Assembly (NCBI RefSeq): GCF_029227915.1
Contig: NC_079885.1
Coordinates: forward strand, 23,127,001 to 23,191,000
Length of the DNA: 64,000 bases
Origin: Hydractinia symbiolongicarpus
Taxonomy: Eukaryota > Cnidaria > Hydrozoa > Anthoathecata > Hydractiniidae
Direction of reading: 5' to 3'
Both the position numbers and the translations under genes were made by a program. A model generated the notes under the pieces. It was not told where the DNA came from. It saw nothing but the letters and a program-made list of their open reading frames with translations, and ran no database searches. Within the stretch, counting starts at the first letter, position 1. Each line of letters opens with the position of its first letter. Of the stretch, positions 5,618-59,110 are shown piece by piece.

Positions 5618-5619
5618 TA

Positions 5620-6034
5620 AACGTTCTCGATGTTCAGAATCAACGGGGAGAAGTGAAAAGTGTAGTCATAAAACAAAAAAGCTAGCAAAGGAAAAGAAAC
5701 AAGGATATCGCTAGTTGCTTGTAAGTACCGCAAACCTTGCTCCCAAAGTATCGAATGAACCATTTAAAGGTTTCTTTCTAATAGCTAAGTACTGTTTAAT
5801 TGCATTCGTACTATATAATTTAAAATCGCCAAATAATTTGATCTCAAGCACAAGCAAATTACTTTTTTACTTGACATTTTAAACATCCACTTTCGTTTGT
5901 TTACATATAGCAATTTAAAATTTTACTCGAAATTTTTTTCCCAGTATTTTTGTGGTATATTTTGCAGAACGAATTTTCATTTTGAAAAAAGTGTATTGTT
6001 TTAAAAAAATTAAAGCCAATAACTATATTTTGCC
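5620..6034. other. Spacer without a recognisable gene
   Basis: This AT-rich sequence lies between the truncated ISL2EU element and the USP remnant. I looked for inverted terminal repeats closing the ISL2EU remnant and found none convincing. Confidence 0.3.
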
Positions 6035-6722
6035 AAGGAATGTAAGAAACAAAATACCCGAAAAACTTGATAAAAGATCCTTTAAAGCAATAGTTGCATT
6101 GCCATCTAAACAATGATATCAGGAACAGCTGTCTAAAAAACTTAGGAAACACATGTTATGCAAACTCAACCTTACAATGTCTTTATACACTTGCAATTCA
6201 TGTCATATTCCCCAGCTCCTCAGAAGTTATAGCACCATGCATCCAACTCTCTCTGCACCCTACGTTATAATCTTCCTTAGATAATTTCTTTAAAATTAAG
6301 GAGTTGTCAGATATTAATGCCTACTTCTGCCATGTTTGCAACGCTCATCAGACTGCTCTAGTTAAAAAAGAGGTAGTGTCGTGCGGTTCTCATGTCATTG
6401 TACAGCTAAAAGTTTTGCCAGTGGCAACGGACTTCTGTCAAGAATTACCTCTCGTATTACTGCTTACCCTGGTACCATTTCCATACCTTTTACCGTAAAT
6501 GGAGAAGTAAAATTTCGTAAACATTTTCAATTAAGGGCTATTATGAATCATTGTGGCAACTTAAATAAAGGTCACTACACAACCATAGCCTTCGATCAAA
6601 AGGTTCACAGGTGGATACATTGCAACGATAGAGCATTATTAACTGTCACGAATCATATCGGTGTTAACTGGAATGAGTCAACAAGGGGGCTTGACTGCAC
6701 TCGTCTTGTCATTGGAGAGTGA
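6035..6722 (+). pseudogene. USP domain of RLE-LINE, copy a (internally deleted)
   Basis: The remnant begins in the Lys-rich linker ('KKQNTRKT'-like, about 6040) that precedes USP in copy f. It then reads the Cys box 'NLGNTCYANSTLQC' at about 6145-6185 with catalytic Cys present. Directly after 'TTTATA' near 6190 it jumps to the sequence that is about 280 bp further on in copy f ('ACTTGCAATTC'), so the middle of the domain is deleted. The zinc-binding part 'YFCHVCNAHQT' at 6320 and the His box 'NHCGNLNKGHYTT' at about 6548-6590 remain. At least one frameshift lies in 6400-6440. Ubiquitin-specific proteases (family C19) use this Cys/His pair to cut ubiquitin isopeptide bonds; this copy cannot. 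Confidence 0.8.
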
Positions 6723-6805
6723 CGACTCCACTTATTACCTTATTAAAAATAAAAACAAAATCAAGGGGGTTTGATCATACTTGGTATTGTGTTTGGAGAG
6801 TATGG
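6676..6805 (+). repeat. 3' motif of the USP-LINE, two tandem units
   Basis: Directly after the USP remnant comes ACAAGGGGGCTTGACT..CGTCTTGTC..TTGGAGAGTGACGACTCCACTTATTACC (positions 6681-6739; described in parts). A second unit starts at 6761 (TCAAGGGGGTTTGATCA) and is cut off after TTTGGAGAGTA at about 6802, where the Harbinger remnant begins. The same motif follows USP in copies b, d, e and f. Confidence 0.75.
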
Positions 6806-14125: not shown

Positions 14126-15954
14126 GCAACATCTCCGCAAGACTTTCTATATTGACTCAATTTCCATAATAATCACGTTACTGTATTTGTCGATCGAAAC
14201 GGAACTGCCCGTTAAATGGCGAATGCTTGGATTCTTGTGTTATTTACAACGCAGTAGTACAAGCTGACGGCCAAGCACCTTTATATTTTAAAGCTAGTGA
14301 AAGTGAGTTCAAAACATAGTACGGCAACCATATGAAATCATCACGGCATAAAAAATGAAGACGAAATGAAATTGTTGGTATTTTTTTAGTAAAAAATGTT
14401 CAGCCCGCGTACATCCAGTGTCGCGTGAAAAAGTTGAAAGGGTTTTATTTGGTTTCAGTTAAAGAATATTCAGTTGTACACGAAACAAGTAATATTAACT
14501 TTCTCTCAGCGAGTCGGATGTTGAAGACAAGGGTGTGGAAAAAGTAAATTCCCACCAACAAAAAAAAGAATACCAAACTTGTACATAATAATCGCAGGCA
14601 TTTAGAAGGAAACTTATCCGCAGGTCAACGGGACCAAATTCTCATTAGAGAAGCCTAGGAAGATGCTCCGTTTCGCAAGGATTTAGCTGAGTGAATGCCT
14701 AAAATAACTGCAAGCTTTCCAACGTCCATGGAACATATAAGTCAATCCATCACCCAACTTTGGAATAGTATTGGTCAGTCTATGGGAATGCTGTCACAAG
14801 GTTACACTTAACGGACTAATGTAATTAGTCGACCCAAGCCACAAGGTAATCCACAAGGGCCATTTTTCTTCAAAATTAGAACTGTTTATCGAAAACAGTA
14901 AGCCTAAAAAAGAAGACGTTTTGTTCATCTGACATTTTGTAACTCTTACAACTATTTTTTGATGACGCGCTGCTTGTTCATTTTTGCGGAAAACGCGCTT
15001 TTTTCGCTTTCATAGATCCCGAACTCGGCACAGGATGTGCTAAAATTTGACTAGTTGTTGTGGACTTTTATGTATGCATCGTTGTCTCTGTCTTGTCTTT
15101 CAATTATGGTTTTATGATTATAAGGTGACAAAACCTTAAGCTGCAATGATGATACTTGTCTAATAACAGCTGACTTGATTCCATGTCATTTTGGAGCTTA
15201 ACACATTTTGTTGCCTCATTTTATCACATTTTATCAATATTACATCATTTTTTAATTTAGTTAGCATTTGAAAATTGGCATTTGTCTTTTTCAAGCTGGT
15301 CCCTCATCATTATTAATCTTTATTCAGCCTTTTTTGATAAACTTTGATTGCATAGAATGAAAATTACAAAGTGCATACACAATGATAAACTCTACCAGTT
15401 AAGTCTTAAAATTTAAATTCTAGAGGTTTTGCTCCTCTAAAGAATATGCTCATATAAAAGAACACAATTCTTAACTCATTATTCTTAATATGTTGGTCAG
15501 CAATTTGGAAATCACTTGACCATCTGTTTAAATATACCAACCCCTCAGTGTTACCGTCTGTTGTAAACATTGAACAACATCCTGTTGCTTTAGTGTTGGG
15601 AGATAACTTTACAGGTTTTCAGGGGATGGTAAATATTTTGTTCAGCACAATAACATGAGTTCTGCTTCTGATGGAAAAGGTCTGATATCTATAGCTGGTG
15701 GTTACATTTTATAGCTATTTATCTATGTGACACGCACAGCAGAGATTGCCACATAAATCTAACAGTCAGTCGATAAACAACGTGCAAGTTCTACAACACA
15801 GAAATACATATGTAAAAACATTTTTGGAAAAAACAATATAATGAAATACGACGTGGAGATTACGCGAAGAAAAAATATATAAAATTTTAAAATTACAATT
15901 AAACAGGCTCGGTTTTTATATGTGTAGTATGTCACAGACGTCTCTATAAGAGGT
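14126..15954. other. Gene-poor stretch; possible USP-LINE 3'-end fragment at 15418-15480
   Basis: I see no supported gene. At 15418-15480 the sequence 'TCTAGAGG...GCTCCTCTA.AGAATATGC' followed by 'CACAATTCTT' resembles the hairpin segment near the 3' end of the USP-LINE (compare 25668-25720). It may be an old 3' fragment in minus orientation. The similarity is partial. Confidence 0.35.
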
Positions 15955-24318: not shown

Positions 24319-25603
24319 ATTAAAGCTCCACCGCTAAGTTCTGCTGATTTGAAACGTTATTTATGGTGCTTAATGCAATCGTTCACAACAAAGTGGGGAA
24401 AGTTTCGCTCTGACTTGAAATCATTAGCTTCATCAATTGACAGTTATGCTCACTTTCTTGATACAGCAGAATCCAAACAACGGTCCAAGCAACTTTTTCT
24501 GGCTTATCATCAATGATAAGCCAGAAATGTCGAAGCTGGCCCTGCTTCCCTTGTTCTTACTCAAGAACTTTATACGGGTTTGCGCACCTATGTTAAGAAA
24601 ATAAGAAATAAATTTGAAGGGATGTATATTGCCATCGACACGCCAGTGTTTGTAAGATGGAGTGGCAACAAGATGTCATCGTCAATAGCAACGGAACAGA
24701 TAAATTCTTTCTGGGGAAAAGCAATCTGCTGTGTCGAAGGTACATGGGGAAAAAGGGAAATGAAAGGAGATCTGGCCTACTTAATGTGTCACTCTGTTGA
24801 AACAGCTGGTTGAATTCATTATTTGCAAAACAAAAAAGGTTGGACAAAACGGAAAGAAGAACCAAAAGAAGAGCTGGAGAGTTGTGTTAGAGCTTATTCC
24901 AACGAGGAGATATGTAAGAAGAAAATCACACTTATCACAATTCGTCAGAAGATAAAAGAATTCCAGCCTTCACACACATAACTGAAATTGCACTCAGGGA
25001 TGAAATCTATATTATCCATAAAGGCAACCCATTGTTGTGTTATTGAATTTTTAGTTCTCCCACGTTATATATGTCAAATATGTTAAATAAGATTTCCACT
25101 TAGTGAAAAATGTCGCAATTGATTGGTAAGCGGAGAATGTCGAGTCGCGAAAAATAAGAGCCAATTCTAATTTTTCCTGCGAAATCAGCTTCCCTCTTAT
25201 ACATATTACTAACTTTCACATTTTTCCATCTTTAAACGTGCTGTTTGGCCACGTCCGTCAAGGTTTCTATTGTAATTTGTTATTGCCTTTAATTTAGATA
25301 ATTCTTATGAAAACTCAGCAGTTGATGCAGATGATATGGAAATTTATAAAAAGCAATAAAAACCAATCAACTGCACATCAGGGAACAGTCGCAAAAGCAG
25401 AAAGGCAATAGTGGTGTTTACTGAACATGATTTAGAACGAATTCATATGCATTTTAAGTCCCTGATCGAGATTGACCAATCAAATAAAATTTGCATAAAA
25501 GAGTTTAAGAAACTCGTGTCAAATTCAGAACTTAGCATTGTTTTTCTGAAACACGGTGAAGATGGTTCTTCACAATGAAAAAACTGTAAAAATCAGAAGG
25601 AAA
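24319..25603 (+). pseudogene. Unrecognised gene, broken and cut off by a LINE
   Basis: A long open reading starts at about 24319 ('LSSADLKRYLWCLMQSFTTK', 'SYAHFLDTAESKQRSKQLFL') and stops where a fold-back duplication lies (24496-24527). It resumes as 'VEAGPASLVLTQELYTGLRT' and continues to 24813, then after a frameshift as 'WTKRKEEPKEELESCVRAYS' to about 24980. A further coding-like piece at 25390-25580 reads 'IVVFTEHDLERIHMHFKSLI' and 'KEFKKLVSNSELSIVFL', possibly the next exon. I do not recognise the protein. Codon use and residue composition look like real protein. The USP-LINE copy b 3' end abuts at 25604, so the insertion probably truncated it. Confidence 0.4.
24496..24527. repeat. Perfect 15-bp inverted duplication in the broken gene
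   Basis: Arms 24496-24510 and 24513-24527 are exact reverse complements (TTTCTGGCTTATCAT) separated by CA. It falls exactly where the upstream reading frame ends, so the duplicated arm probably caused the break. It has the same form as the event at 9852-9898. Confidence 0.8.
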
Positions 25604-25802
25604 TAATTTACAAAGAGGTGGCAAGCCACCGCAATGATGAACTCAACCTGTTAGGTCTTTGGAAACAAGCTAGAGGTTGTACTCCTCTAGAGAATATGCC
25701 TCTAAAAGCACAATTCTCCCTTTTTCCAAGGAATTAATTAAAAAAATATAAAAAATAAAATAAAAAGGACACAACACATTTGAAAAGATGAACAGAACTT
25801 TA

Positions 25803-25913
25803 ACCAAGGGCAGGTAGGTTTCGACCCATATTTCTGAACCTAAGTACCCTGGATGTCTAGCTGGGTCACCTCGAAGAGGTCCGCGGACGGTCATCAGCAG
25901 AAACTAGACATCC
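25803..25913 (-). ncRNA. Structured RNA segment in the 3' UTR (copy b)
   Basis: On the minus strand a 10-bp helix (GGATGTCTAG with CTAGACATCC; 25913-25904 with 25860-25851) encloses 'CTGCTGATGACC', a CCG/CGG hairpin and an ACCTC/GAGGT hairpin. A second hairpin with AGGTTT/AAACCT follows. The same layout with different bases occurs in copy e (58982-59046), so the fold, not the letters, is kept. A role in binding the element's own reverse transcriptase is inferred. Confidence 0.6.
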
Positions 25914-25978
25914 CTATCTTCCTAAAATTAACTTTGACCACTTTCTGTTCAACTGTGCTATTCTTTGTTTTTAACTCA

Positions 25979-26255
25979 GGTAATAAGTGGAGTCGTTACT
26001 CTCCAAAGACAAGATCATGTGTGATCAAACCCCCTGCTAATATTTTTTTTTTTATTCTTAATTTATTTATTCTTTTTTTTTAACTGGAGTAATAAGTGGA
26101 GTCGTCACTCTCCAAAGACAAGACGTATTGTGATCAAACCCCCTTGCTAACTTAATTCTTATTTGATTTTGTTTTATTTTTGACTGGGGTAACAAGTGGA
26201 GTCGTCACTCTCCAAAGACAAGACTGAGTGTAGTCAAGCCCCCTTGCTGACTCAT
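25979..26255 (-). repeat. USP-LINE 3' motif in three tandem units
   Basis: Read on the minus strand, three units of about 65 conserved bases plus AT-rich spacers start at 26255, 26151 and 26037. Each has AGCAAGGGGG (AGCAGGGGG in the third), then YTTGA, a variable 10-15 bases, CTTGTCTTTGGAGAGT, RACGACTCCACTT and RTTAC. The inner TGGAG and CTCCA can pair around a GTRACGA-containing loop. Copies a, d, e and f carry one or two units at the same place after USP. Confidence 0.85.
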
Positions 26256-26271
26256 TCTGGTTAAAATATTC

Positions 26272-27020
26272 TTATCTCAGCTCTTCTAAAAAGAAAACAT
26301 ATGACTCGTGCCTGTTAATAAGGCGGTCATCACAGAAAATTACTGCTCTATCGTTGCAATGTATCCACCTGTGTACCATTTGGTCGAAGGCTATGGTTGT
26401 GTAGTGACCATTATTTAAGTTGCCGCAATGGTTGATAATAGCCCTTTATTAAAAATTTTTACGAAATTTCACTTCTCCATCTACGGTTAAAGGTATGGAA
26501 AGGGTACCACGGTAAGCAGTAATACGAGGCAATTTTTGACACAAGGCCGTTGGCACTGCCAAAACGTTTTAGCTGTAAAATGAGATGGGAACCGCACGAC
26601 ACTACTTCTTTTTCAATTAGAGCTGTTTGATGAGCGTTGCAAACATGGCAGAAGTAGGCATTGGTGTCTGACAACTCCTCGCTTTCGAAGAAATTTGTAA
26701 CGTAGGGTGCAGAGAAAGTTGGATGCATGGTGCTATAACTTCTGAGTAGCTGGTAATATGACATGAATTGCAAGTGGTTGATGTCTTGATGTCAATACTA
26801 AAAAGACTTCCAAGAAATGGAAAGTCTAATGACAGACCAAGTAGGAGATATTCAAGAACCTCGGGGACGTCGTGCTGAGCAAAGATATTAAATGCACTTC
26901 CCTTCGCAGCTGAGATATGATGTTTCATAGCACGCAAAATATGGGAGGGATCAACTGCACTTCTAGAAACAGCCAAACTTTGAAGAACACCCTTTTCCGC
27001 AGAAGGCACTGAAGATGCTG
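26272..27020 (-). pseudogene. USP domain, copy b (5'-truncated)
   Basis: The reading begins inside the domain ('GVLQSLAVSRSAVDPSHILR'), so the catalytic Cys box is missing. It runs through 'NIFAQHDVPEVLEYLLLG', the zinc-binding CxxC pair 'CNSCH' and 'YFCHVCNAHQT', 'SHLILQLKRF', and the His box with 'HYTTIAFDQ', ending 'VFFLEELR' at the stop TAA (26272-26274). One frameshift lies at about 26650. It is very similar to copy f and clearly diverged from copy d. Confidence 0.85.
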
Positions 27021-27070
27021 TTGCACCAAGACATACATAATACATTTACACTTTTTATGTATATTTCTAT

Positions 27071-30047: not shown

Positions 30048-30172
30048 TTGAAAATAATTTACAAAGAGGTGGCAAGCCACCGCAATGATGAACTCAACCT
30101 GTTAGGTCTTTGGAAACAAGCTAGATGTTGTACTCCTCTAGAGAACATGTCTCTAAAAGCAGGTTGTTATGA
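30048..30172 (-). mobile_element. USP-LINE 3'-terminal fragment
   Basis: The sequence 30052-30160 matches 25602-25712 of copy b nearly base for base, including the AATTTACAAAGAGGTGG end and the TCTAGAGGAGTACAAC hairpin. It breaks off after the 'TCTAAAAGCA' segment. It is therefore an extremely 5'-truncated insertion of only about 120 bp, confirming the 3' end of the family. Confidence 0.85.
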
Positions 30173-41638: not shown

Positions 41639-41739
41639 CCTGCTGAGAATATTGAAGCAATGCTGTCTTTCCCGCTTTTTACTACCATATTCTACCCCCA
41701 AGCCAAAATGGCTAGTTATCGTTGCCATGGTGGTGACGT

Positions 41740-41755
41740 CATTCCGACCGCAAGA
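41740..41755 (-). repeat. Terminal inverted repeat, right end of ISL2EU-B
   Basis: CATTCCGACCGCAAGA is followed by AT (41756-41757) and then USP copy c sequence. Confidence 0.93.
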
Positions 41756-41940
41756 ATGACATGTATCACAAGTGGTAGATGTCTTGATACCAATACTAAA
41801 AAGACTTCGAAGAAATGGAACATCTAATGACAGACAAGGTAGAAGATATTCAAGGACCTCGGGACGTCGTGCTGAGCAAAGATATTAAACACGCTTCCCT
41901 TCGCGGTTGCGATATGACTTTTCATAGCACGCAAAAATTG
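41756..41940 (-). mobile_element. USP copy c, main fragment
   Basis: 41758-41938 matches 26763-26940 of copy b closely ('GATGTCTTGAT.CCAATACT', 'GGTAGAAGATATTCAAGGAC'). On the minus strand it encodes the USP middle ('RAMK.H', 'HDVPEVLEYLL', 'FPFLGSLF'). It is cut at 41940 and lacks both catalytic boxes. This fragment is the target into which ISL2EU-B jumped. Confidence 0.8.
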
Positions 41941-42239
41941 AAAAAGGTTTACAATACAGCAAGCTGCACTGAAGTATCTTGTCTACAGGGACGGTGGATG
42001 TAAATAAAATTGGGATTAGGCTCCCAGAAGAAGGTGCTGAATACACTTTCTTGCTTATTACAAGCATGAGTACTGTCCAACTTGGACCTATAACTATTCA
42101 CTGAGAAAATCTTAAAGAGAAAAAACAATCCTTCAATCACAAACAATACAACACAAGACAGAGCTAACAACATAAACGGACTGGTTACAGAACAAACACA
42201 AATGGAAAAAATGTATATGTCAAAAATATATAATATAAA
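41941..42239. other. Spacer without a recognised feature
   Basis: Short open frames on both strands show no domain. It separates the fragment of copy c from the 3' end of copy d. Confidence 0.3.
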
Positions 42240-42256
42240 AAAGAATTATATAAAGC

Positions 42257-42340
42257 CCTCCTGTGCGCCAGAGCTTGTGACTCTGGCTGTAGCTTTCCAC
42301 ATGTGTTACAGGGCCCAAACACTCAGCCTTACACAGGAGG
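42257..42340 (-). ncRNA. Branched hairpin region in the 3' UTR of copy d
   Basis: On the minus strand CCTCCTGTG (42340-42332) pairs with CACAGGAGG (42265-42257). Inside lie a CTGTA/TACAG hairpin and a CCAGAG/CTCTGG hairpin, after a single-stranded CTGAGTG. The outline (outer helix, CTGA-containing strand, two inner hairpins) matches the segments in copies b, e and f although the sequence does not align well. I rate the equivalence as likely but not shown. Confidence 0.45.
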
Positions 42341-42440
42341 TTGTCATGACTGGACCAGCCTGTACATATTTTGACTAAGGACAGCAGGGCTGCCAAGCCT
42401 GAAGAGCAAGTTAGTAAACTTGGGCACCTTATTGAACTGT

Positions 42441-42500
42441 GGTAAAAAGTGGGATCGTTACACCCAAAGACAAGCTGAAAGCAAACCCCCTTGCTAAGCT
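42441..42500 (-). repeat. USP-LINE 3' motif, copy d version
   Basis: On the minus strand this reads AGCAAGGGGGTTTGCTTTC then AGCTTGTCTTTGGGTGTAAC then GATCCCACTTTTTACC. Compared with copy b, the helix TGGAG/CTCCA has become TGGG/CCCA, so both arms changed together while the loop GTAACGA stayed. Confidence 0.8.
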
Positions 42501-42645
42501 TCTTTTAAGTTACCAGAGAAGAGTGAGCTGAACTCTTTACCCTCTGGGTATTGACGGCAAACTGGTTCGAATGAACTAGCTGGGGTAATATAAAACCGCT
42601 CGGATTTACATTTTCCTCCCCCATGACCCTGGAAGTACAGGTTTT

Positions 42646-43659
42646 TTAAACGTAATGATAAATGTATAAGAAAGAAAGAAAAAGCGGATCAACAGCGAAC
42701 GTAACAAAGAATATAACATGAATTGTTGTTGAGAATAGGTGGAGAGCATTTGCAAACCGCTCATCGTTGCAGTGGTACCAAGAATTTGTGGCAGGATCCT
42801 TAACATAAGCCCAATAATGACCTGCGGTTACCGTACCGGAGTGATTAATTGTTGCTAACAATGAGTAGTTCTGATTAAACATTGTGTCCGTATCACTGAC
42901 GAGAGGTAGTTGCAGAAGAGAGTCACGTAAAGAAACACATTCAACAACTCTGTTGTCTTTTACCAGATGTTCACCATGTTTTAAAAACCTTTTAAGATGC
43001 AGGAATAAGATTTCACTAATCCTGCTGATTTGCGTTTCTCTAGTACTCTCTCTATGTGCAAAGCATTGCAGACAAAACCACTTGTTTCCATCAGTTAGAA
43101 TTTCCAGTTCTAAAAATTTGCGGACACAAGATTGGATTTTAGATGTCATTGGCAGTGTGAAAATGTCCTGCATTTCCACATTTACCGAGGTGCACAGGCA
43201 GGTGCTACAGCTTACGGACATTGAGATTTCAGTTGAAATTTTATCTGCAGCAATCGGGGAAAATCCCTTAAGGGCGTCCAAAACCACAAACAAAATCTCT
43301 GCTACATCTTGCTGAGTATTAAATTGGAAGTCCACTTTTCCATCAGAGTGCATTTGACGTTTAAGGGCCCAGAGAAAATTCGAAGGGTCAACAGGTGACA
43401 ATGATTGCTTCAGCTTCGCCATGTTAAGGGAAATAGACCTCGCAATAGGTGATAAATGAAACGATTCTGACCCACTCTGGCACCAGAGTGTTGGAATGGT
43501 ACTTAATACTTGCAAAATGGCGTTGGCGTAACAGGTGTTGCCTTTGTTTAAAAAACCGATGTTTTTATAGACACTAATTGGTTGAGTGTCATTTTTATTT
43601 TTTGCTAACCTTTTTAGATGGCCCCTTTCAGCGAGATGAAACACCCTTGGTCTCCACAA
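42646..43659 (-). CDS. USP (C19) domain, copy d, intact open frame
   Basis: 337 codons. The Cys box 'GFLNKGNTCYANAILQVLS' at residues 32-50 has the catalytic Cys and the Asn/Gln of the family. 'SRISEILFLHLKRFLKHGEH' is the conserved LHLKRF strand, and 'SLLATINHSGTVTAGHYWAY' is the His box with 'SWYHCNDE' after it. Zinc-binding pairs are 'SCSTCLC' and 'WFCLQCF'. Length fits a minimal USP catalytic core. The last 35 residues are hydrophobic and probably read past the natural end, which other copies place about 12 residues after 'CND'. The start is not defined, since in other copies USP is a C-terminal part of a longer protein. It is the only copy here with a complete, undisrupted catalytic core. 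Confidence 0.85.
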   Translation of the reverse strand: MWRPRVFHLAERGHLKRLAKNKNDTQPISVYKNIGFLNKGNTCYANAILQVLSTIPTLWCQSGSESFHLSPIARSISLNMAKLKQSLSPVDPSNFLWALKRQMHSDGKVDFQFNTQQDVAEILFVVLDALKGFSPIAADKISTEISMSVSCSTCLCTSVNVEMQDIFTLPMTSKIQSCVRKFLELEILTDGNKWFCLQCFAHRESTRETQISRISEILFLHLKRFLKHGEHLVKDNRVVECVSLRDSLLQLPLVSDTDTMFNQNYSLLATINHSGTVTAGHYWAYVKDPATNSWYHCNDERFANALHLFSTTIHVIFFVTFAVDPLFLSFLYIYHYV

Positions 43660-43756
43660 TGGGCAAAGCCTGCTTGGATTTGGGTAATTGCATTAAGGAG
43701 TCAGTTGACCAAACATTGGATGAGGGGTCAACTGAACTTCTAGAAGCAACCAAACT

Positions 43757-48448: not shown

Positions 48449-48555
48449 AGTTCAAAATAGTCATAACACAAAAGATATAACGCGAAGAATAAGTGAAATA
48501 AAAATAAAAATGAAGAAATAAATGAAAGAGAACAAAAAAGTGAATAAAATTTGAA

Positions 48556-49735: not shown

Positions 49736-50895
49736 GTGAAACCATCTATATTGTGCCCACTACCTTTAAAAAGTCTATCCTCTGTACTGAAATCTGCTAA
49801 GATCAGTGGTCATCTTCTCCTGCAAGATTCGGCTGATCCTCTAGTCTCACACTCTCCTCCAGACTTAAAGGCTGGACACTGGAAGGTAGATCAGATAGTA
49901 GAATCAGCAGAGAGTCAACTCCAGTTCAAGAAAATACTTGGTTTCCACCAGTTTGGTAGAGCAGGTTTAGGACTGGTAAGCCATAAGAGTGTCTCACCAA
50001 TTGGTACCCATTCTTACCGCAAACTTGTATCAGATGTTGTGCAGGACAACGAGGAAAACATCTATTATGCTCGAGCCTTTTAGCTTCATGTCCAAGGTAA
50101 CTGGACTAAGTGGTGCTCGTTTATTAAATACGATCTTTCTTTGAAAAACCTACTGTCTCTGCCGCCAAGTTTATCTTCGTTTTGCATCAGCGCAACCTAT
50201 GACATGTTTCCTTCTCCTACAAATCTTGTCAAGTGTGGGAATTCAAAATGACAAAAGTTGCACCCTATGTAAAAAACCCTCTTGTAACGTTTCCCACATT
50301 TTAGGCGCTTGTAAATTAGCCCTTTCACAAGGTAGATTCACGTACCGCCACGATACTGTTCTATGTGTGTTAATGACGGCCGTTCGGAAGTTCTTATCCA
50401 ATTGTGAGCCAGCAAAATCATCTAGATGTCATAAAGTATCCTTTGTTCCGGCTGTTAAACGTCTTCCCACCAAAAAGTGTTCAAAAATTCAAGGAATTCT
50501 TCACCTGGCCTCTGATTGGAGGTTATTGTCAGACTTAGATTCAACCTTAATAGTACCACCTTATCTGCCTGTAACTTAACTTCGTCCGGACATACTTTTA
50601 ACTACTGCCATAACCAAAACTGTAGTTATCCTTAAATTAACTTGCCCATGCGAAGAGAACATGGAAACTTGGCATGGAGTTAAGGTTGATAAATACTCGT
50701 CACTTTGTTCCGTCATGAGATTAAACAATTGGTCTGTGCATTTCTTTGCTGTTGCAGTAGGAGCTAGGGGATTTTGTTCTGAAGCAGTTAGAATCTGCCT
50801 CTGTTGTCTCGGCTTTTCTAGCATGTCTGTGCGTTACTGAGTCATCTATGCGATCGTCGTTTTACATCTGGCTATCTCGAGATTCTTTGTCTTGG
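49736..50895 (+). pseudogene. RT C-terminus and RLE nuclease of copy e
   Basis: The reading 'LLLQDSADPLVSHSPPDLKA', 'FHQFGRAGLGL' and, after a stop at 50082, 'HVQGNWTKWCSFIKYDLSLK' is the C-terminal part of a known animal RT family. The RLE region starts with the CCHC knuckle 'CTLCKKPSCNVSHILGAC', then 'ALSQGRFTYRHDTVLCVL' with its R-H pair, then after a TAA at 50577 'RPDILLTTAITKTVVILKLT' (the PD of the PD-(D/E)xK nuclease). Then come 'CPCEENMETWHGVKVDKYSS', 'NWSVHFFAVAVGARGFCSEA' and, past a stop, 'SSFYIWLSRDSLSW'. The element's nuclease nicks the target to prime reverse transcription. Stops and shifts at 50082, 50250, 50577 and 50840 make it dead. Confidence 0.85.
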
Positions 50896-51079
50896 ATTAG
50901 TAGTAGTAGTATTTTTATTTCGTGTGAGATAACTGTATATTTTACATTAAATAAATACCTACGGGGAGACCATCAGATAGTATAAATACTAATGTAGGTG
51001 ATGGCCACCTATATAAGATCAAACGATTGCAATAAGCAGTATGACACTACAAAAAAAAAATTTTTTAGTAAAATCTTTT

Positions 51080-54000
51080 TTATGCAGTGGAGAGATTAGT
51101 GTTATAGCAATCCAGAAGATAAGTTTTGCAGATTTTTTTTAGTTGTTTTAAAGTGAGAGAGGCTAGGTCGTATTGGTGAAAGTGTTGTTGGATATTGTTC
51201 CAATTAATAATAGATTGGTAACGTATAGATTTGAGACCAAATGAGGTAGTCCTAACAGAAGGTCTAGCTAGAAGTTTAATGGATTTACTTCTTGTTGAAT
51301 GATTAGATGAATGGCAGACCAATTTAAAAATATCACAAATATTACCTGGAGAATGCAGATTTATAATATTCAAAGTTAAAATAATGTTGAGAAATTTTAT
51401 AAGATCTGAAAGAGTAAGAATATTAAGATTAAGAAAAATAGGATTTGATGGTAGAAAAAGTAATGATTCGGAGAGCAGCTTTTTGTAAGCGAAAAATTCT
51501 ACACGACTTTGAAGTGAGACCCCACACTTGCGGACTATAAGAAATATGAGAAGAAAATAATGCATGGTAAATTGAAAGTAGGATATCCTTAGGCACATAA
51601 TATCTTAGTTTGCAAAGAGCTCCATTTGTTTTTCTTAATTTATTGCCAATATAAGATATGTGGAAATCCCAATCTAGAAATTCATCTATTAATATACCTA
51701 GATATCTTACATGAGATGAGAATTCAAGTTTTTTTCCATTTAATTTCAGCCTTATATCATAGTTGACTGCTTTATTTCTTTGCCTAAATAGGATGACTTC
51801 AGTCTTTGCTACATTTAATGCTATTTTATTTGCAGTTAGCCATTTATATATACATTTTAAATCTATATTTAAATGCTTCTGCATTTTTTTCAGATTATGG
51901 TTAGCATATAACATGCAAGTGTCATCTGCAAAATGAAAAATTTCTGAAAAAATTATTGAGTTAATTAAATCATTAATATAAAGTAAAAATAAAATAGGAC
52001 CAAGAACGGAACCTTGGGGAACTCCATGTTTAATAAAAAGTTTTTTAGATTTGGTGTTAGTTAGGGAGACATATTGTACCCTATCGCTGAGATAGGAGCG
52101 AAACCAGGAGTTTGTTACACCTCTAATTCCATAATGTTCAGGCTTTGAAAGGAGAATTTCGTGTGATACAGTATCAAAGGCCTTTTGAAGGTCTATGAAG
52201 ATTCCACATGCAAACTTACAATTATCTAAATTTTGTCGAATAGTTTCAGTGAGACTAATTAGTGCATGGGTGGTTGAATGTTTGGTCCTAAATCCAAATT
52301 GTTTATTGGTTATAATTTTATTAGAATCTAGGAAAGAAATTAATCGGTTTTTAATTATTTTTTCAAAGATCTTATCCAAATTGCTTAATAATAATATGGG
52401 TCTATAATTATTTGGATCAAGAGGAGACCCTATATTCTTGTAGATTGGTATGACACTAACCATCTTTAATATGTTTGGGAATACACCTTGTTGTAGGGAA
52501 AGATTAAAACGTTTGGTTAATATTGCAGAAATTGCTATGTTGGCTTGTTTTAAGATAAGATTAGGGACACTGTTTGGGCCCGATGCTTTGGTTAAATCAA
52601 GGTTATTTATGATCTTTAAAACTTCTTCTATTGTTACAGGGTTAAAGAATAATGAGTTACTATTATTATTTTTTAGGTAAGATGAAAAGTGTGTATTGTT
52701 ATGTGGAATTTGGTTTCTAATTTTATCTGCAACAGAAGTAAAATGTTTATTAAAAGCATTAGCTACAGTTAATTTTTCAGAGATTATTTTATCATTTATT
52801 TTTAAGGAAGAAGTGCTAGATCTACTGTTGTTATCTTTATTATTTAAAATATCCTTTATACCTTTCCAAATTTTTCTACTGTTATTTTTGTTGATTAAGA
52901 AAAATTCTTTATAATAGTTTGATTTTGAGTTCCTGATAAGATTAACTATACGATTTCTATAAAATTTATATTGGTTTTGATAATATAATTTTTTTTCTTG
53001 GTTTTTAGCTTTGATTAACTTTTTATAGTAATTATTGCGGATGTTAATGGATTTTAGAATAGCTCCAGTGACCCAAGGTTTATTTCTATTACTTAATTGT
53101 TTTTTTGATAGTTTTTTATTAGGGGTATGTCTACACACAATTTGGTCTAATTGATTAAAAAAAAGGTTAAAAGAGTTATTTACATTATTTTCATTTAAAA
53201 GCAAAGTAGAATCCCAATCTATAGATTCTATGTCATTTATTACGGCATTAATGTTTAAATTTTTCCAATCCTTGTAATAGGTGTCTAAATTATCCTTGAC
53301 TTTAAGTCTATTGTCAAAATAAATTAAAAATTGAGGAAGGTGGTCTGAAATTGAGGTGATGATGTTACCTGAGAAATATTTTGTAAATGGATTAGATGTA
53401 AATATATTATCAATTAAAGTTTTAGATGTATTAGATATTCTGGTTGGATATGTTATAGATGGTTGTAAAAAATTAGAATAAAGTTCATCCAGGAAATCAT
53501 CAACTAGATGGTTACTTTCACATTTTAGAAGATCAATATTAAAATCTCCCATTAAAATAAGTTTTTGTTTTTGCTTAATAGCTACTTCAAAGAAGGGTTT
53601 AAGATACAAATTAATAAATTCAGGAATTGGCATATTAGGGTGTTTATAAATGCACCCAACAATGGTATTTTTACGATTGTTATCTAAGATTTCTACAAAA
53701 GTTGATTCTAATTTACTTTCAAGAAAGAGCAAATTTGAAAGGTCTGAGCGTACCACTACTGTTAGCGAATTAGAAATATACAAGGAAGTACCTCCTGCAT
53801 TGCTGCTTGAAAGGTTATGAAATCCTCTATAACCTTTTAAAATTGGTGTTATTGAGTACTTACTAAGTCTAGTTTCACTGAAGCCTAACACATCAAAGTC
53901 AATATTGAGAGAGTTCAGAAGAATGTTGATATTATCAATATTCTTGGGAAGAGAACAAGTATTAAGATGAAAATAAGAAAAATTAGGTGTAAGGTCCGAA

Positions 54001-54350
54001 GAAGAAAGTTGTTCAAGAGTAGAGTTAAAGCTGTTATATTCATAATATTTACAATTAGTAAACCGTTGATCTTCATCATCAACATTATTTGAAAAAGAGG
54101 TTTCAATATGAGAGTTAACGTCAGAAAAAATCTTGTCTATTGTATTGTCACTCTGGAATGGAAAAATTTCAGAATTACACTTTAAACACGACCATGCCTC
54201 ATCTGAGTTATCCTTGGTGAGTTTTTTGAAGTCATTAGAATTAAGCAAGTTACAACTTGGGTGAACCCAAAGTTTACAAAAATCACAAAAAATACAGTTA
54301 GAATTTGCCCTAATCAATTCACTGCATATACCACAAAAAAACTTACTAAT
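51080..54350 (-). pseudogene. LINE-2 ORF2: partial PHD finger, APE endonuclease, reverse transcriptase
   Basis: The open frame runs from about 54400 with no ATG in frame. It begins with a PHD-type finger ('FFCGICSELI', 'CIFCDFCKLWVHPSC', 'WSCLKC'). APE endonuclease motifs follow: 'FSYFHLNTCSLPKNIDNINI', 'VLGFSETRLS', 'CIYKHPN', 'LILMGDFNIDLL' and 'SISDHLPQFLIYF'. The RT has 'VSVIPIYKNIGSPLDPNNYR', 'QFGFRTKHSTTHALISL', 'GIFIDLQKAFDTVSH', 'HGVPQGSVLGPILFLLYIND' and the catalytic 'FHFADDTCMLY'. The frame slips near 51450 at a T5 run and the C-terminus continues to 51080 ('LNILTLSDLIKFLNIIL', 'IINWNNIQQHF'). Apart from that single slip the ORF is long and clean, so the copy is young. Confidence 0.88.
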
Positions 54351-54533
54351 TCTTAGTTTGCGCGTTTGAGAGGGAAGCCAAAGAACTCACATAAATTACT
54401 GCATGAGCATCAGACTAATTTTAGCACATCTTCGCCGCCATATTAGAAATCAATCATAGATCGTACTAACAAAAAATTTTCCTAGTTGGTAATTATACTA
54501 AAAATATTAGTAAGCGTGGAGAATCGAAAAAAT

Positions 54534-55373
54534 TTATTCGGCATCAGCGTTAAAGTTGAAAGTTGGAAATAGGCCAGAAAGTTTATCAAAGTGATCTATC
54601 TTAATTTTCTGATCATTTTCTTCAACAACGATGAAGAGATTTCCATTAAAAACCCAAAAACGATTGATCATCTTCTTTGAATGAAGTCTCTTACATTTGC
54701 CCCACAGGAACTTCATGTACGGGGATAGGTTAAAATTAATAAAAATATTTTCTTTCAGACCAATTTCTCGCAATTTCTTTTTAGTTTTCGAGTTCGAATC
54801 TTTTAACTTGAATTTATTTGCATGTAAAAGGTCGCAGTTTTTTTTGTTAACGAAGCGTACAATCGTCTTCTTAGTTTCGTTTTCTCTAGCGTAAAGGCGG
54901 TGGCATGCTTCAACATCGCTTTCAGAAAATTCAACACCTATAGCCTTAGCAATCTCAATGACTTTATCTTGAAGCTCATCTTGGTCAATAGAATTAGGTA
55001 TACCACAAACCTCAACATTGTTCCGTCGGACGTACTGTTGGAGATTAATCACGTCTTTTTCCAATTCCAGCATGAATTTATCTTTTTCTTGATTTTTCTC
55101 TTTCATTGCATCAATTTCATCTCTTAAAACTTTATTTTCAGTTCTTAGTTGTTCAACGATATCATTTTTTTGTTGCAATAGTCCGTTTTTGAAATATTCT
55201 TTGAGGTTAGAGATCTGCTCAATAAGGAAGTCTTGTGTGATTGCCAAGTTGGATGAGGATTCTTCCGGGAGCATTTCACTTTTCGTGTTGTTGTTGGTTG
55301 TGTTGGTGGTCTTGGCTCTTACATTACTCCTTAGGTTGATACTGATGGGGCTTGTGTTGGTGGACATATTCAA
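54534..55373 (-). CDS. LINE-2 ORF1: coiled-coil RNA-binding protein
   Basis: 279 codons, intact. A Thr/Asn/Ser-rich N-terminus is followed by a coiled coil at residues about 55-115 ('KEYFKNGLLQQKNDIVEQLR', 'DEIDAMKEKNQEKDKFMLEL'). An RRM-like part follows ('LQQYVRRNNVEVCGIPNSID', 'VEACHRLYA', 'TIVRFVNKKNCDLL'), then a C-terminal domain ('IFINFNLSPYMKFLWGKCKR', 'FWVFNGNLFIVVEENDQ'). It is similar in plan to LINE-1 ORF1 but only distantly in sequence. It lies about 180 bp upstream of the ORF2 finger. Confidence 0.87.
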   Translation of the reverse strand: MNMSTNTSPISINLRSNVRAKTTNTTNNNTKSEMLPEESSSNLAITQDFLIEQISNLKEYFKNGLLQQKNDIVEQLRTENKVLRDEIDAMKEKNQEKDKFMLELEKDVINLQQYVRRNNVEVCGIPNSIDQDELQDKVIEIAKAIGVEFSESDVEACHRLYARENETKKTIVRFVNKKNCDLLHANKFKLKDSNSKTKKKLREIGLKENIFINFNLSPYMKFLWGKCKRLHSKKMINRFWVFNGNLFIVVEENDQKIKIDHFDKLSGLFPTFNFNADAE

Positions 55374-55489
55374 GTCTTTAGTTCTTTAAAGTTAAAATGA
55401 GTTTTTTGACACAGGCGACGCCCTTTTTTTGCGCGGCAAAAAGACGTCTGAACAGTATGAAGGTCAGATCGGAAGATTCATCCTGGTAG

Positions 55490-56496
55490 GGACCCACAGC
55501 ATACGACTCAATTGATACCAACTGTTTCCCAACTGTTTCAAAGAAATCATCCAAGTCACAAGCAACTTCGACCACTAGCTTTAAGGACACGAATCCCCAG
55601 GACATAACAAAGACCTCCACTACCTTGCCTGCACAAGAATCACTAGGCAGCAACAGCGGCTTGCTAAATGGGCAACACATGTTACATCAATTCCTTCTTG
55701 CATCAATTCCATGTTTTTATGTGTTACCGGCAGTCGCCACAGCCAATTCTGCAAATGATTCCAATATGGCGATAAGTAAAAGTTTGTAAGTATTCTACGC
55801 AAACTATCCTCCACCAAGGTTCCAGTGAACACTTCTTCATTTCTAAATGCATTAAAAGGCCATGTTTCTAATACAAGGGTTGTTGCTTTTAATCCGTTCT
55901 CTCAGCAAGATGCCCTAGATACTCTTGAGTATCTCATACCAGAGTGGTTCTTAGTCTTTCCTTTCTTTGGTAGATTATTCAACACTCTTGTTAAAATCTA
56001 CAATACTTGCAGCGCTTGCAATAATATTAGCACCTCTGAGCAAGTAAGTCCATTTCTTCAACTGCCCTTGGCATCGACTGTACAATTTTCAGTAGATAAC
56101 TTTTTGCAGAGCGAAGAATTGTCAGGTGTCAACTCGTACTTCTGTCACTACTGCAATAGTTACCAAACTGCAACAGTTGAAAAAGATTCTGCAATTAAAG
56201 CGCTTTGCCTATAACAAAGGTCTTTTGTCTAATGTTTCTTCTCCTGTCACATCTTACCCGGGCACCGTTTCTATACCTATCACTATAGACAGTAAAGTCT
56301 CTTGTCACAAGCACTACAACTTAGGGCTGTAATTAACCACTCTGGAAATTTGAACAATGGCCATTACACTACTGTTGCTTATAACCAAGTGCATGGTAAG
56401 TGGTTTCATTGCAACGACAGAGAAGTGGTCCCTTGCAAACAAAGCTTGCTTGATGATGTACAACCTTACATCCTTTTCCTTGAAAAGCTTAGGTAA
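55490..56496 (+). pseudogene. USP domain of copy e
   Basis: A Ser/Thr/Lys-rich linker ('TVSKKSSKSQATSTTSFKDT', 55520-55620) leads into 'LGSNSGLLN'. After a 1-base slip the Cys box 'GNTCYINSFLHQF' follows (55662-55705) with catalytic Cys present. 'SSFLNALKGHV' and 'FNPFSQQDALDTLEYLIPEW' continue in the frame at 55825-56214, with zinc-binding 'CSAC' and 'YFCHYCNSYQT'. The frame slips near 56170 into 'KRFAYNKGLLSNVSSPVTSY' and again near 56325 to the His box 'VINHSGNLNNGHYTTVAYNQ' and 'WFHCND', with stop TAA at 56494-56496. The antisense open frames at 55378-55832 are shadows. Confidence 0.82.
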
Positions 56497-56523
56497 ATTG
56501 CAGTCACCACAACTTCCGGCTTA

Positions 56524-56548
56524 TGTCAGCAAGGGGGTTTGACTATTC
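56524..56548 (+). repeat. 3' motif of copy e, first half, cut by copy f
   Basis: TCAGCAAGGGGGTTTGACTA begins the 3' motif 28 bases after the USP stop. The expected continuation (GTAGTCTTGTCTTTGGAGAGTG) is found at 58856-58876, on the far side of copy f. Confidence 0.8.
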
Positions 56549-56583
56549 TTATTTTATTTTTTTTATATTTATTTTTTTTATTA

Positions 56584-57540
56584 TGTGAAAAATGATTTAT
56601 CTTGGAGAACAATTCTTTCACTGCCACAATGTCTAACTTCCTTTTGTATAGGGGCAACCTACGACACCCTTCTCTCTCCAACCAATCTAGTGAGATGGGG
56701 AATTGAGAAACACAAAAGTTGCATTCTGTGCAAGAAACCATCCTCAAATGTCTCTCACATACTGGGTGCCTGTAGGACCTCCTTTACGCAGGGTAGATAC
56801 ACATGCCGTCATGACTCGGTTTTAATAGTTTTGGTTAAGGCATTAACAGAGTTTTTGGTATCATATGAACCTCTTAAGGTTTCTAAGTGCAACAAAATTA
56901 ATTTAATTACGGCCGGTTAATCACCATCTAAGAAGAGGCATACAAAGTGTCCAGGCCTTCTTCACCTTGCTTCCGATTGAAAAATACTGTCACATTTAGA
57001 TTCCGTTTTAGTTGTTCCACCATACATTGCAATAACACAACTACACCCAAACGTGTCATTAATATCCAGTTCTTCCAAAACTGTAATTATGTTAGAACTG
57101 ACTTGTCCATGTGAAGAGAACACGGAATATTGGCACAAACAAAAAAATATTCTTCACTTTGTTATGCTATGAAAAACAATGGATGGATCGTGCATTTCTT
57201 TGCCATTGAGGTGAGCACAAGGGGTTTCAGTTCAGAATCAGTAAGGACCTGTTTTCGTCGCCTTAGTTTCCCTAACAAGCCTTTACGTTCCCTATTACAA
57301 TCCGTAACTTTTACCTCCATGAGTGCTTCTTTTAACATCTGGATGTCTCGAAATTCTACCACTTGGGTTGAGCCTGAAAAGGCCCCAATCATTCCTGAAG
57401 TTTCGTCTGTTACAAATATGGAATGTAAGAAATCAAAAACCCCTGAGAAATCTTCCGCAAATCACACAAAATCTTGTAAAATCAAAAAACCCGAAAAACT
57501 TGCTACAAGGTCTTCCAAAACAACAGTCGCATTGCCATCT
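56584..57540 (+). pseudogene. RT C-terminus, RLE nuclease and linker of copy f
   Basis: It reads 'LSWRTILSLPQCLTSFCIGA', 'YDTLLSPTNLVRWGI' (end of the RT thumb-like region), then the knuckle 'CILCKKPSSNVSHILGAC', 'QGRYTCRHDSVLIVL', and after slips 'LHLASD', 'SSSKTVIMLELTCPCEENTE' and 'NGWIVHFFAIEVSTRGFSSE'. It closes with 'SFNIWMSRNSTTW', the point where related LINE proteins end, as I remember them. Here the frame stays open through about 50 more residues rich in Lys, Ser and Pro ('KKSKTPEKSSANHTKSCKIK') into 'NPDFRNSGLK', the start of USP. The RPD of the nuclease is replaced by HPN in this copy, so it is inactive. Confidence 0.85.
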
Positions 57541-58423
57541 AACCCTGATTTTAGGAATAGCGGCCTAAAAAAACTTGGGAAACACATATTATGCAAACTC
57601 CATCTTACAATGTTTTTATAACCTTCCAAAAGTTAAAGAAGCCATTTCTGTCAGCAAAACAACCTCAAAATTAGGCGAAGCATTTGTAGGTGTTCTTCAA
57701 AGTTTGGCTGTTTCTAGAAGTCCAGTTGATCGCTCCCATTTTTTGCGTGCTATGAAACATCATATCTCAGCTGCGAAGGGAAGTGCATTTAATATCTTTG
57801 CTCAGCTCGACGTCCCTGAGGTTCTTGAATATCTCCTACCTGGTCTGTCATTAGACTTTCCATTTCTTGGAAGTCTTTTTAGTATTGGCATCAAGACATC
57901 AACCACTTGCAATTCATGTCATATTACCAGCTCCTCAGAAGTTATAGCACCATGAATCCTACTTTCTCTGCACATTGCGTTACAATCTTCCTTAGATAAT
58001 TTCTTCGAAAGCGAGGAGTTGTCAGACACCAATGCCTACTTCTGCCATGTTTGCAACGCTCATCAAACTGCTCTAGTTGAAAAAGAGGTAGTGTCTTGCG
58101 GTTCCCATCTCATTTTACATCTAAAACGTTTTGCCAGTGCCAACGGCCTTGTGTCAAAAATTGCCTCTCGTATTACTGCTTACCCTGGTACCCTTTCCAT
58201 ACCTTTAACCGTAGATGGAGAAGTGAAATTTCGTAAAAATTTTCAATTAAGGGCTGTTATCAACCATTGCGGCAACTTAAATATTGGTCACTACACAACC
58301 ATAGCGTTCGACCAAATGTTACACAGGTGGATACATTGCAACGATGGAGCAGTAATTTTCTGTGATGACCGCCTTATTAACAGTCACGAGTCATATGTTT
58401 TCTTTTTAGAAGAGCTGAGATAA
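57541..58423 (+). pseudogene. USP domain of copy f, catalytic Cys replaced by Tyr
   Basis: The domain starts in frame with the RLE and linker ('NSGLK'), then slips by one at an A7 run near 57553 (one A too many) and continues as 'NLGNTYYANSILQCFYNLPK'. The catalytic Cys of the GNTCY motif is Tyr (TAT). Then come 'GVLQSLAVSRSPVDRSHFLR', 'IFAQLDVPEVLEYLLPG', 'CNSCH', a TGA near 57955, 'YFCHVCNAHQTALVEKEVV', 'LILHLKRFASANGLVSKIAS', and the His box 'VINHCGNLNIGHYTTIAFDQ' with 'WIHCNDGAV', ending 'VFFLEELR' at 58423. It is closest to copy b. Confidence 0.88.
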
Positions 58424-58443
58424 GAATATTTTAACCGGAATGA

Positions 58444-58490
58444 GTCAGCAAGGGGGCTTGACTACACTCAGTCTTGTCTTTGGAGAGTGG
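58444..58490 (+). repeat. 3' motif of copy f, single unit
   Basis: TCAGCAAGGGGGCTTGACTA, CACTCAGTCTTGTCTTTGG, AGAGTGG starts 23 bases after the stop codon. The ACGACTCC arm is lost; in copy b the same position is followed by two further units, so this copy probably lost them by deletion. Confidence 0.8.
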
Positions 58491-58530
58491 TCAAAAGTGA
58501 AAGTGGTCAAAGTTAATTTTAGGAAGATAG

Positions 58531-58640
58531 GGATGTCTAGTTTCTGCTGATGACCGTCCTCGGACCTCTTCGAGGTGACCCAGCTAGACATCCAGGGTAC
58601 TTAGGTTTAGAAATATGGGTCGAAACCTACCTGCCCTTGG
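58531..58640 (+). ncRNA. Structured RNA segment in the 3' UTR (copy f)
   Basis: The outer helix is GGATGTCTAG (58531-58540) with CTAGACATCC (58584-58593). It encloses 'CTGCTGATGACC', a CCG/CGG hairpin and an ACCTC/GAGGT hairpin. A second stem-loop (CAGGG..AGGTTT with AAACCT..CCCTTG, 58593-58640) carries GGGTCGAAACC, which also resembles a pol III B box. It is nearly identical to copy b and structurally equivalent to 58982-59095 of copy e. Confidence 0.65.
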
Positions 58641-58856
58641 TTATTGTTCTGTTCATCTTTTCAAATGTGTTGTGTCCTTTTTATTTTATTTTTTTTATAT
58701 ATTTTTTTTAATTCCTTGTGAAAAGGGAGAATTGTGCTTTTAGAGGCATATTCTCTAGAGGAGTACAACCTCTAGCTTTTTTTCAAAGACCTAACCGGTT
58801 GAGTTCATCATTGCGGTGGCTTCCCACCTCTTTGTAAATTATTTTCTTTTTTTTGT

Positions 58857-59110
58857 AGTCTTGTCTTTGGAGAGTGCTTAACAGATTTGCACTTAACTCT
58901 AGAGATTTCTTTAATCAGGTAGTGAAAGTCCACTGGATTTATAAGAAGGTAATATTACACCTAGGTTTAAGTGAAAGAAAGAGAGGCTGAGTCACTGCTG
59001 ATGACCCTTACAGGGACCTTAGTTAAGGTGAACCCGCTCAGCTTCTAAGTAAATCAGCTTGTTCAGTGAAAGGGTTCGAAACTGCTGATATACTAGGTTG
59101 GATAGGATTG
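58857..59110 (+). mobile_element. 3' UTR of copy e, resumed after copy f
   Basis: GTAGTCTTGTCTTTGGAGAG at 58855-58874 completes the motif broken at 56545. Downstream, at 58982-59046, a 10-bp helix AGAGGCTGAG/CTCAGCTTCT encloses CTGCTGATGACC, a CCC/GGG hairpin (loop TTACA), and an ACCTT/AAGGT hairpin. A stem ATCAGC/GCTGAT with GGGTTCGAAAC follows (59053-59090). Helices match copies b and f in position with different base pairs. Confidence 0.7.

Follow-up and report, generated by a model that had tools for sequence, protein, structure and literature searches.

The window analysed here, a 64,000-nucleotide stretch of the Hydractinia symbiolongicarpus genome (NC_079885.1, positions 23,127,001 to 23,191,000, forward strand), holds two copies, named e and f, of what its sequence identifies as a 'jumping gene': a clade of non-long terminal repeat (non-LTR) retrotransposons of the restriction-like endonuclease (RLE) type in this colonial hydroid, whose single predicted protein ends in a ubiquitin-specific protease (USP). 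The order predicted in one frame is N-terminal region, reverse transcriptase (RT), CCHC knuckle, RLE, linker and USP. Copy f carries the CCHC knuckle, the RLE nuclease ending in SFNIWMSRNSTTW (the W-end), a Lys/Ser linker and a C19 USP. Pfam gives a zf-RVT match at 56543–56917 (E 2e-5, 25.6 bits, just below the curated 27.5) and UCH (PF00443) matches at 57569–57952 (4.7e-9) and 57956–58420 (5.2e-13), and an open frame at 57115–57568 runs from the middle of the RLE through the W-end and the linker into the first USP residues. The initial annotation, made from the sequence alone, had taken f as one reading from the RT C-terminus to the USP; the domain order stands, but the single reading is broken by three in-frame stops (56918, 56978 and 57953) and two frameshifts (near 57147 and 57568), and both f and e lack the catalytic core of the RT, contrary to the RT part that had been assigned to them. 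The DNA of f is 95.9% identical to that of another genomic locus, L048, with which it is contiguous over 1835 columns; its edges are uncertain, the 5' edge to within about 40 bases.

Copy e is split by a long interspersed nuclear element (LINE) of the apurinic/apyrimidinic endonuclease (APE) type, which lies between its RLE and its USP (Table 1). The left part has a weak zf-RVT match (0.0044) and 91% DNA identity to locus L029, and its 49.8–50.2 kb portion corresponds to the stretch between RT and CCHC (residues 716–856 of the Hydractinia protein P0006, whose RT match ends at 647). Three relatives (L029, L049 and L052) can be aligned to both flanking parts of e and run on without a break where the LINE sits, with a 4-base overlap, indicating that the LINE is an insertion in e, so that the order proposed for e around a LINE insertion could be read straight across in all three. 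No shared stretch of at least 8 bases was found around the LINE in e; the overlap revealed by the relatives is 4 bases long. The two halves of a 3' untranslated region (3'UTR) motif of e lie on either side of f, and the motif is contiguous in f itself and in the copy at 26 kb, showing that f was inserted into the 3'UTR of e. An origin of the two copies by tandem duplication was rejected on the same ground, f sitting within the e 3'UTR. The f 3'UTR also matches two solo 3' ends, at 30.1 and at 15.4 kb, and these matches end at the same place or earlier. In the 3'UTR segments at 58525–58603 (f) and 58978–59060 (e), the outer stem is kept with different bases around a conserved CTGCTGATGACC; scoring of the stem gave z −2.77 for e and a weak −0.98 for f, and an Rfam scan gave no matches at gathering scores in the window and two matches around f well below them.

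The arrangement of e and f recurs elsewhere in the genome. A search of the 481-Mb assembly with PF00443 gave at least 150 matches (149 of 1015 candidates scored), and the same search of 14 control genomes gave none. We analysed the 56 best UCH matches, which fall at 54 loci, and found an RLE just upstream of the USP in 45 of these loci, in two of them on short remnants (L057 and L060, 21 and 26 bits). Seven of the nine loci without an RLE have a USP whose closest counterpart among the RLE-bearing loci is 95–99.9% identical over about 0.9–1.1 kb, and look like 5'-truncated copies. The other two, L023 and L024, are the two best UCH matches; their USP is divided into separate blocks, and none of the element loci is related to them. 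L023 has an 886-amino acid (aa) open frame and L024 has nine stops between blocks, as across introns, and we read both as probable host USP genes. A stop-free frame of 1426 aa is present at six loci (L009, L010 and L012–L015), five of which are 99.5–99.7% identical in DNA to L009, and further stop-free frames were found at L016 (1422 aa), L017 (1423 aa) and L018 (1379 aa). In the three frames tested (L009, L016 and L018), Pfam places RVT_1 and UCH in one stop-free frame, which supports, from the same genome, the LINE family proposed from the window, in which a USP follows the RLE; this family also has many full-length relatives elsewhere. The joint of CCHC knuckle, RLE, W-end, Lys/Ser linker and C19 USP, seen in the same order in e and f, is real and extends far beyond the window.

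These data bear directly on the suggestion that chance brought a USP host gene or retrogene to lie beside the RLE. Host USP genes do occur in this genome, as L023 and L024 illustrate, without an upstream RLE or an element relative; in contrast, the adjacency at 45 of the 54 loci, the 1426-aa fusion frames and the fusion in many database proteins speak against a chance neighbour. In addition, a common 3'UTR tag, AGCAAGGGGGYTTG, was found behind five USP copies of the window (seven matches with at most one mismatch, against 0.00 expected), and the distances of the RT–RLE and USP parts correlate, as described below. On these grounds a host-gene neighbour was rejected, and the genomic loci likewise led to rejection of an adjacency confined to this locus; we regard the chance explanation as having next to no probability.

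The predicted protein retains the residues expected of each of its parts. RVT_1 was found by Pfam in nine of nine proteins tested, including the three genomic frames, and UCH exceeded its curated cut-off of 23.9 in all nine (106–144 bits, and 74 bits in P0096). The RT motif A Asp is present in 74/74 rows with a letter at that position and the DD residues in 93/94 and 93/93; the CCHC residues after the RT are kept in 125/126, 126/127, 126/128 and 127/127 rows, and the Asp, Glu and Lys of the PD-(D/E)xK nuclease in 120/122, 119/121 and 118/119, respectively. The hallmarks of non-LTR elements were also present: the eleven loci read have variable 5' ends and a common 3' end, and dispersed, 5'-truncated copies occur among the genomic loci.

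Three protein searches, all with queries from this family, listed 217 proteins (two of the lists being the best 120 of 309 and the best 120 of 353). By local profiles, 188 of those listed have RT and RLE, and 97 of these also have the USP. Among listed RT and RLE proteins with at least 150 aa past the RLE, 90 of 91 match a USP profile for which 26 of the 91 supplied the seeds; 64 of the remaining 65 match, and the single exception, P0171, ends in a USP Cys box that breaks off. Among listed proteins that have both RT and RLE, no USP match begins before the RLE end. Column counts over 131 proteins push some fragments into the USP columns, and the catalytic triad was therefore recounted on the 59 proteins with long RT, RLE and USP matches: Cys, His and Asp are each present in 59/59, the oxyanion Asn in 58/59, and the zinc Cys residues in 57, 59, 59 and 59 of 59. 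In the same 59 proteins the RLE–USP linker spans 34–455 aa (median 58); family members have up to 797 aa ahead of the RT. Listed proteins such as P0001, P0006, P0014, P0021, P0085 and P0112 are filed as H. symbiolongicarpus proteins, and the only organism names among listed USP-clade members are Hydractinia and a Pseudomonadales metagenome-assembled genome (P0051 and P0083), the latter probably reflecting eukaryotic contamination of the bin. Scans of viral and prokaryote contigs confirmed no relative. C2H2-like zinc fingers were seen by eye near the N-terminus of P0096, P0148, P0147 and P0081, and Pfam lists PF00096 for P0147, P0154 and P0159.

A tree was built from 121 RT–RLE rows, 67 other proteins with RT and RLE being omitted as too short. 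All 63 rows with a USP fell in one clade of 86 rows (SH-aLRT 100; first split drawn open). The 35 rows outside it have no USP and all stop 3–15 aa after the RLE, fish and a bivalve being among the named ones, in agreement with the earlier expectation that related RLE elements end at the W-end; P0202, which is outside the tree, has a 73-aa tail without a USP. Within the clade, 22 rows lack the USP: 14 that nest together (P0121 and its kin), four that form another group (P0153, P0161, P0163 and P0165), P0147, and three that are cut short or frameshifted (P0168, P0077 and P0055). When changes were counted on 49 chosen rows, 28 with and 21 without the USP and the cut-short rows dropped, four gains or losses were needed, and a tree uniting all USP rows was rejected (p 1.5e-25). 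The simplest history would be a single gain with three losses; the trees themselves do not orient the individual changes. Since several descendant lineages would have lost the USP and kept RT and RLE, the USP appears accessory to the copying chemistry.

The RT–RLE and USP distances of the 59 proteins correlate with an r of 0.82, a value that none of 2000 permutations reached (maximum 0.20). Together with the near-identical stop-free frames, this indicates coupled divergence of the parts of the predicted protein and recent copying of intact-frame elements. It also bears on whether the USP might have been captured several times from different host genes. Such a history would fit the low identity of the clade's USPs (about 26% at the median), and the host references in our comparison were solved USPs only; against it, all five proteins tested (P0028, searched as a whole protein, P0148, P0160, P0096 and P0081) score higher to the USP of another subclade than to any solved USP, the USP never precedes the RLE end in the listed proteins, and the distances of the two parts correlate. 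We therefore consider repeated capture improbable.

Codon positions were compared as a measure of constraint. Between e and f, differences at first, second and third positions number 78/46/126 in the RLE (p 1.9e-9) and 74/62/118 in the USP (p 1.8e-5), an excess at the third position in both. No significant bias was found between f and its own copies at 26 kb (9/11/8, p 0.79), 6 kb (22/12/24, p 0.11) and 41.8 kb (8/3/10, p 0.15). Median dN/dS at dS 0.02–0.10 is 0.49 for the USP (26 pairs), lower than for the RT (0.56, two pairs) and the RLE (0.64, 24 pairs); this median and those at lower dS are all below 1, from pairs that are non-independent and sets that differ. No pair had a dS of 0.4–1.2 by the NG86 method, which makes dN/dS between families unreadable.

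Judged from these sequences, the best explanation is an element family with a constrained USP, to which we assign a probability of roughly 0.93, a figure that excludes the ubiquitin target. Several points weigh against it. The copies in the window are all broken or truncated; the loss of the USP in several lineages shows that it is dispensable; and at dS below 0.02 the median dN/dS of the USP (0.54, 154 pairs) is higher than those of the RLE (0.29, 64 pairs) and the RT (0.22, 36 pairs). The protein searches were seeded with the family and two lists hold the best 120, so that their proportions are not a census, and the family USP could act on another ubiquitin-like tag. The repeated loss and the raised dN/dS among near-identical copies would also suit an inactive USP that serves as a ubiquitin-binding or structural part, an alternative that we judge very unlikely given the conservation of Cys, His and Asp, the oxyanion Asn and the zinc Cys residues.

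The predicted fold agrees with a constrained USP. An AlphaFold model of P0106, made with 42 sequences, has a mean predicted local distance difference test score (pLDDT) of 83.5; the RLE and USP regions are modelled with confidence, the linker (340–372) with low confidence, and its predicted template modelling score (pTM) of 0.49 leaves the relative placement of RLE and USP open. The best Foldseek match of the model is 2hd5, USP2 with ubiquitin (E 4.9e-24, TM-score 0.80 to the target). In all, 332 chains match structurally, and the best 50 of the 332 are all USPs, so that the RLE fold is not confirmed by Foldseek. Among solved chains, the RT is nearest by sequence to R2 (P0028 to 9nl3, E 6.3e-18), and the tested USPs are nearest to USP2 or USP15, with USP8 and USP21 close behind. 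With its conserved active site and predicted USP fold, the family USP looks like a working ubiquitin-removing enzyme, suggesting an element that may edit the cell's ubiquitin tags to aid its own spread.

In the mechanism that we propose, the element protein would bind its own RNA and, as in R2, copy it by target-primed reverse transcription, with the RLE nicking DNA and the RT making the copy; the tethered USP would meanwhile remove ubiquitin in the neighbourhood of the complex. Such deubiquitination would shield the ribonucleoprotein from ubiquitin-dependent turnover or restriction. The likeliest targets of the USP may be the element's own protein and the host proteins bound to it, which we hold at slightly better than even odds for this step alone. 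A different target, and the main rival, would be chromatin or repair factors at the integration site, such as ubiquitinated histones or PCNA. The linker, modelled with low confidence and probably flexible, would let the USP reach neighbours, and the structural matches include Ubp8, the SAGA deubiquitinase whose structure was determined on a ubiquitinated nucleosome; a role in DNA repair has also been proposed for the OTU and Ulp1 domains of DNA transposons in the Ginger paper (PMC2836005). On the other hand, the nearest solved chains (USP2 and USP15, then USP8 and USP21) among the 332 matches indicate no single substrate, and lineages without the USP exist. We consider a chromatin target unlikely, but a serious competitor to action on the element's own complex. 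A broader proposal, tentative and held at somewhat less than even odds, is that a large undescribed LINE clade made one C-terminal capture of a USP, has since used it as an active weapon against ubiquitin-based host control of retrotransposons, and dropped it in descendants no longer facing that control.

Several known systems resemble this family in part. R2 has an RT followed by CCHC and RLE, and to our knowledge carries no USP; its likeness to the family (solved as 9nl3, 9dou and 8gh6) is an RT sequence match covering the RT only. The R2 clade proper differs in using one 28S ribosomal DNA (rDNA) site, whereas the 3' flanks of eleven family loci differ and no fixed target was seen in them, the rDNA itself not having been searched. 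Fish and bivalve RLE proteins (P0188, the Tetraodon polyprotein Q7T1J8; P0180 of Astyanax; P0212 of Mercenaria) share the RT–CCHC–RLE order and the W-end, but have no USP, end 3–15 residues past the RLE and sit outside the USP clade; we take them to be the HERO/Zebulon group, the tree holding no named clade references. Dualen/RandI elements are LINEs with an OTU-type protease and both APE and RLE nucleases. They are like the family in being LINEs with a protease of the ubiquitin field, and differ in the OTU domain and the APE; in nine family proteins no Exo_endo_phos match indicative of an APE nuclease was found at 1e-3. In nematodes, according to PMC4640811, the RLE retrotransposons NeSL and Utopia-1_TSP have an Ulp1-like protease at the N-terminus, and so share with the family an RLE element with a cysteine protease of the ubiquitin/SUMO field; as described there, the protease is Ulp1-like and N-terminal, in contrast to the C-terminal C19 USP. 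No Pfam match to an N-terminal Ulp1-like domain was found at 1e-3 in the same nine proteins. Ginger1 DNA transposons, which carry an OTU or Ulp1 domain at the C-terminus, and a C19-bearing transposase of Trichomonas (PMC2836005) likewise join a mobile-element protein to a deubiquitinase-type domain; as presented there, they are DNA transposons with integrase-like or transposase_11 domains and not reverse transcriptases.

Proteases of the ubiquitin field have thus been reported on DNA transposons and, N-terminally, on some nematode RLE elements. We found no description of a LINE with a C-terminal USP in the literature, most subscription journals being outside the scope of the search; the novelty claimed in the initial annotation is borne out to that extent, and an entry in Repbase or Dfam, both outside our scope, is possible. 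Hydractinia is an animal kept in laboratories, and the clade has intact, recently copied members there as well as USP-less relatives, so that a comparison between them makes the role of element-borne deubiquitinases directly testable.

The young family with 1426-aa frames is also informative on how its units are arranged. L009 has an identical 480-base direct repeat at 209–688 and 5577–6056, and at L010, L012 and L019 two units follow each other head to tail at a spacing of about 5.37 kb. L013 (291 bases), L015 (204) and L017 (111) have a shorter 5' repeat with the same 3' end, which indicates a full unit preceded by the truncated 3' end of another; L020–L022 are truncated and have no 5' repeat. 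It is as if RNAs started in the 3' region of the upstream unit, which would fit the variable 5' repeat and the constant 3' end. Zebulon of pufferfish is a tandem RLE element and may parallel these head-to-tail units. Seven loci gave no shared flank stretch of more than 6 bases.

Table 1. Copies of the USP-bearing element and the interrupting LINE in the window
Feature	Positions	Strand	Evidence
Copy e, left part (broken): region between RT and CCHC, CCHC knuckle, RLE, W-end	49754..50898	+	tblastn to Hydractinia P0006, 70–84% in two long pieces
APE-type LINE (PHD, endonuclease, RT), ~4.6 kb, between RLE and USP of e	50899..55474	-	Pfam RVT_1, Exo_endo_phos and PHD in 51432–54386
Copy e, right part (broken): linker and USP	55475..56496	+	UCH_1 weak, 0.0076; DNA 90% identical to that of L029 over the joint
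Copy e, start of 3'UTR with AGCAAGGGGGTTTG tag	56497..56545	+	Tag match
Copy f, 5'-truncated insertion in the 3'UTR of e	56546..58858	+	3'UTR motif of e flanks f on both sides; T-rich 5' edge
Copy f, end of pre-CCHC region, CCHC knuckle, RLE to W-end (SFNIWMSRNSTTW)	56585..57366	+	91–92% to P0001; zf-RVT 2e-5
Copy f, Lys/Ser-rich linker, in frame with the C-terminal half of the RLE	57367..57567	+	Open frame 57115–57618; contiguity with L048
Copy f, USP (C19): Cys box, zinc CxxC pairs, GHY and CND boxes; one in-frame stop	57569..58420	+	Pfam UCH
Copy f, 3'UTR with AGCAAGGGGG tag and stem-forming segment	58421..58846	+	93% to the 26 kb copy
Copy e, rest of 3'UTR, resuming after f	58859..59060	+	Alignable to 3'UTR of f; outer stem kept, bases differ
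Copy d, 5'-truncated: linker, USP, 3'UTR; young-family member with intact copies elsewhere	42301..43721	-	97.8–97.9% to L009, L012, L013 and L014; UCH 9.7e-31
5'-truncated copy: linker, USP, 3'UTR tags	6041..6773	+	82% DNA identity to f; two tags, one mismatch each
5'-truncated copy: USP and 3'UTR, tag region three times	25573..27036	-	94.5% DNA identity to f over 801 columns; tags
USP fragment	41735..41952	-	88% DNA identity to f over 186 columns
Solo 3' end, f-type family	30050..30161	-	94% DNA identity over 112 columns
Solo 3' end, older	15380..15471	-	78% DNA identity over 92 columns

The further USP copies expected in the window were found at 6.0, 26–27, 41.7–42.0 and 42.3–43.7 kb, but no USP was found at 38.3 kb, where a fragment had also been placed. 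The USP of the 6 kb copy spans 6.04–6.72 kb (+) and that of the 26 kb copy 26.2–27.04 kb (−), and copy d represents a subfamily different from, and younger than, the other copies of the window. Some copies carry the 3'UTR tag region more than once, at 26106–26250 (−) and 6680–6773 (+). Two APE-type LINEs are present, at 45366–48451 (−) and 51432–54386 (−), each with a separate shorter upstream frame that appears coiled-coil-like by eye; in both LINEs the second protein begins with a PHD finger. Pfam also places a YqaJ-type exonuclease domain at 39361–40303 (+), followed by a PHD finger in another frame, and a weak integrase core (rve) match, below cut-off, at 60816–61502 (+) is likely the remnant of another mobile element.

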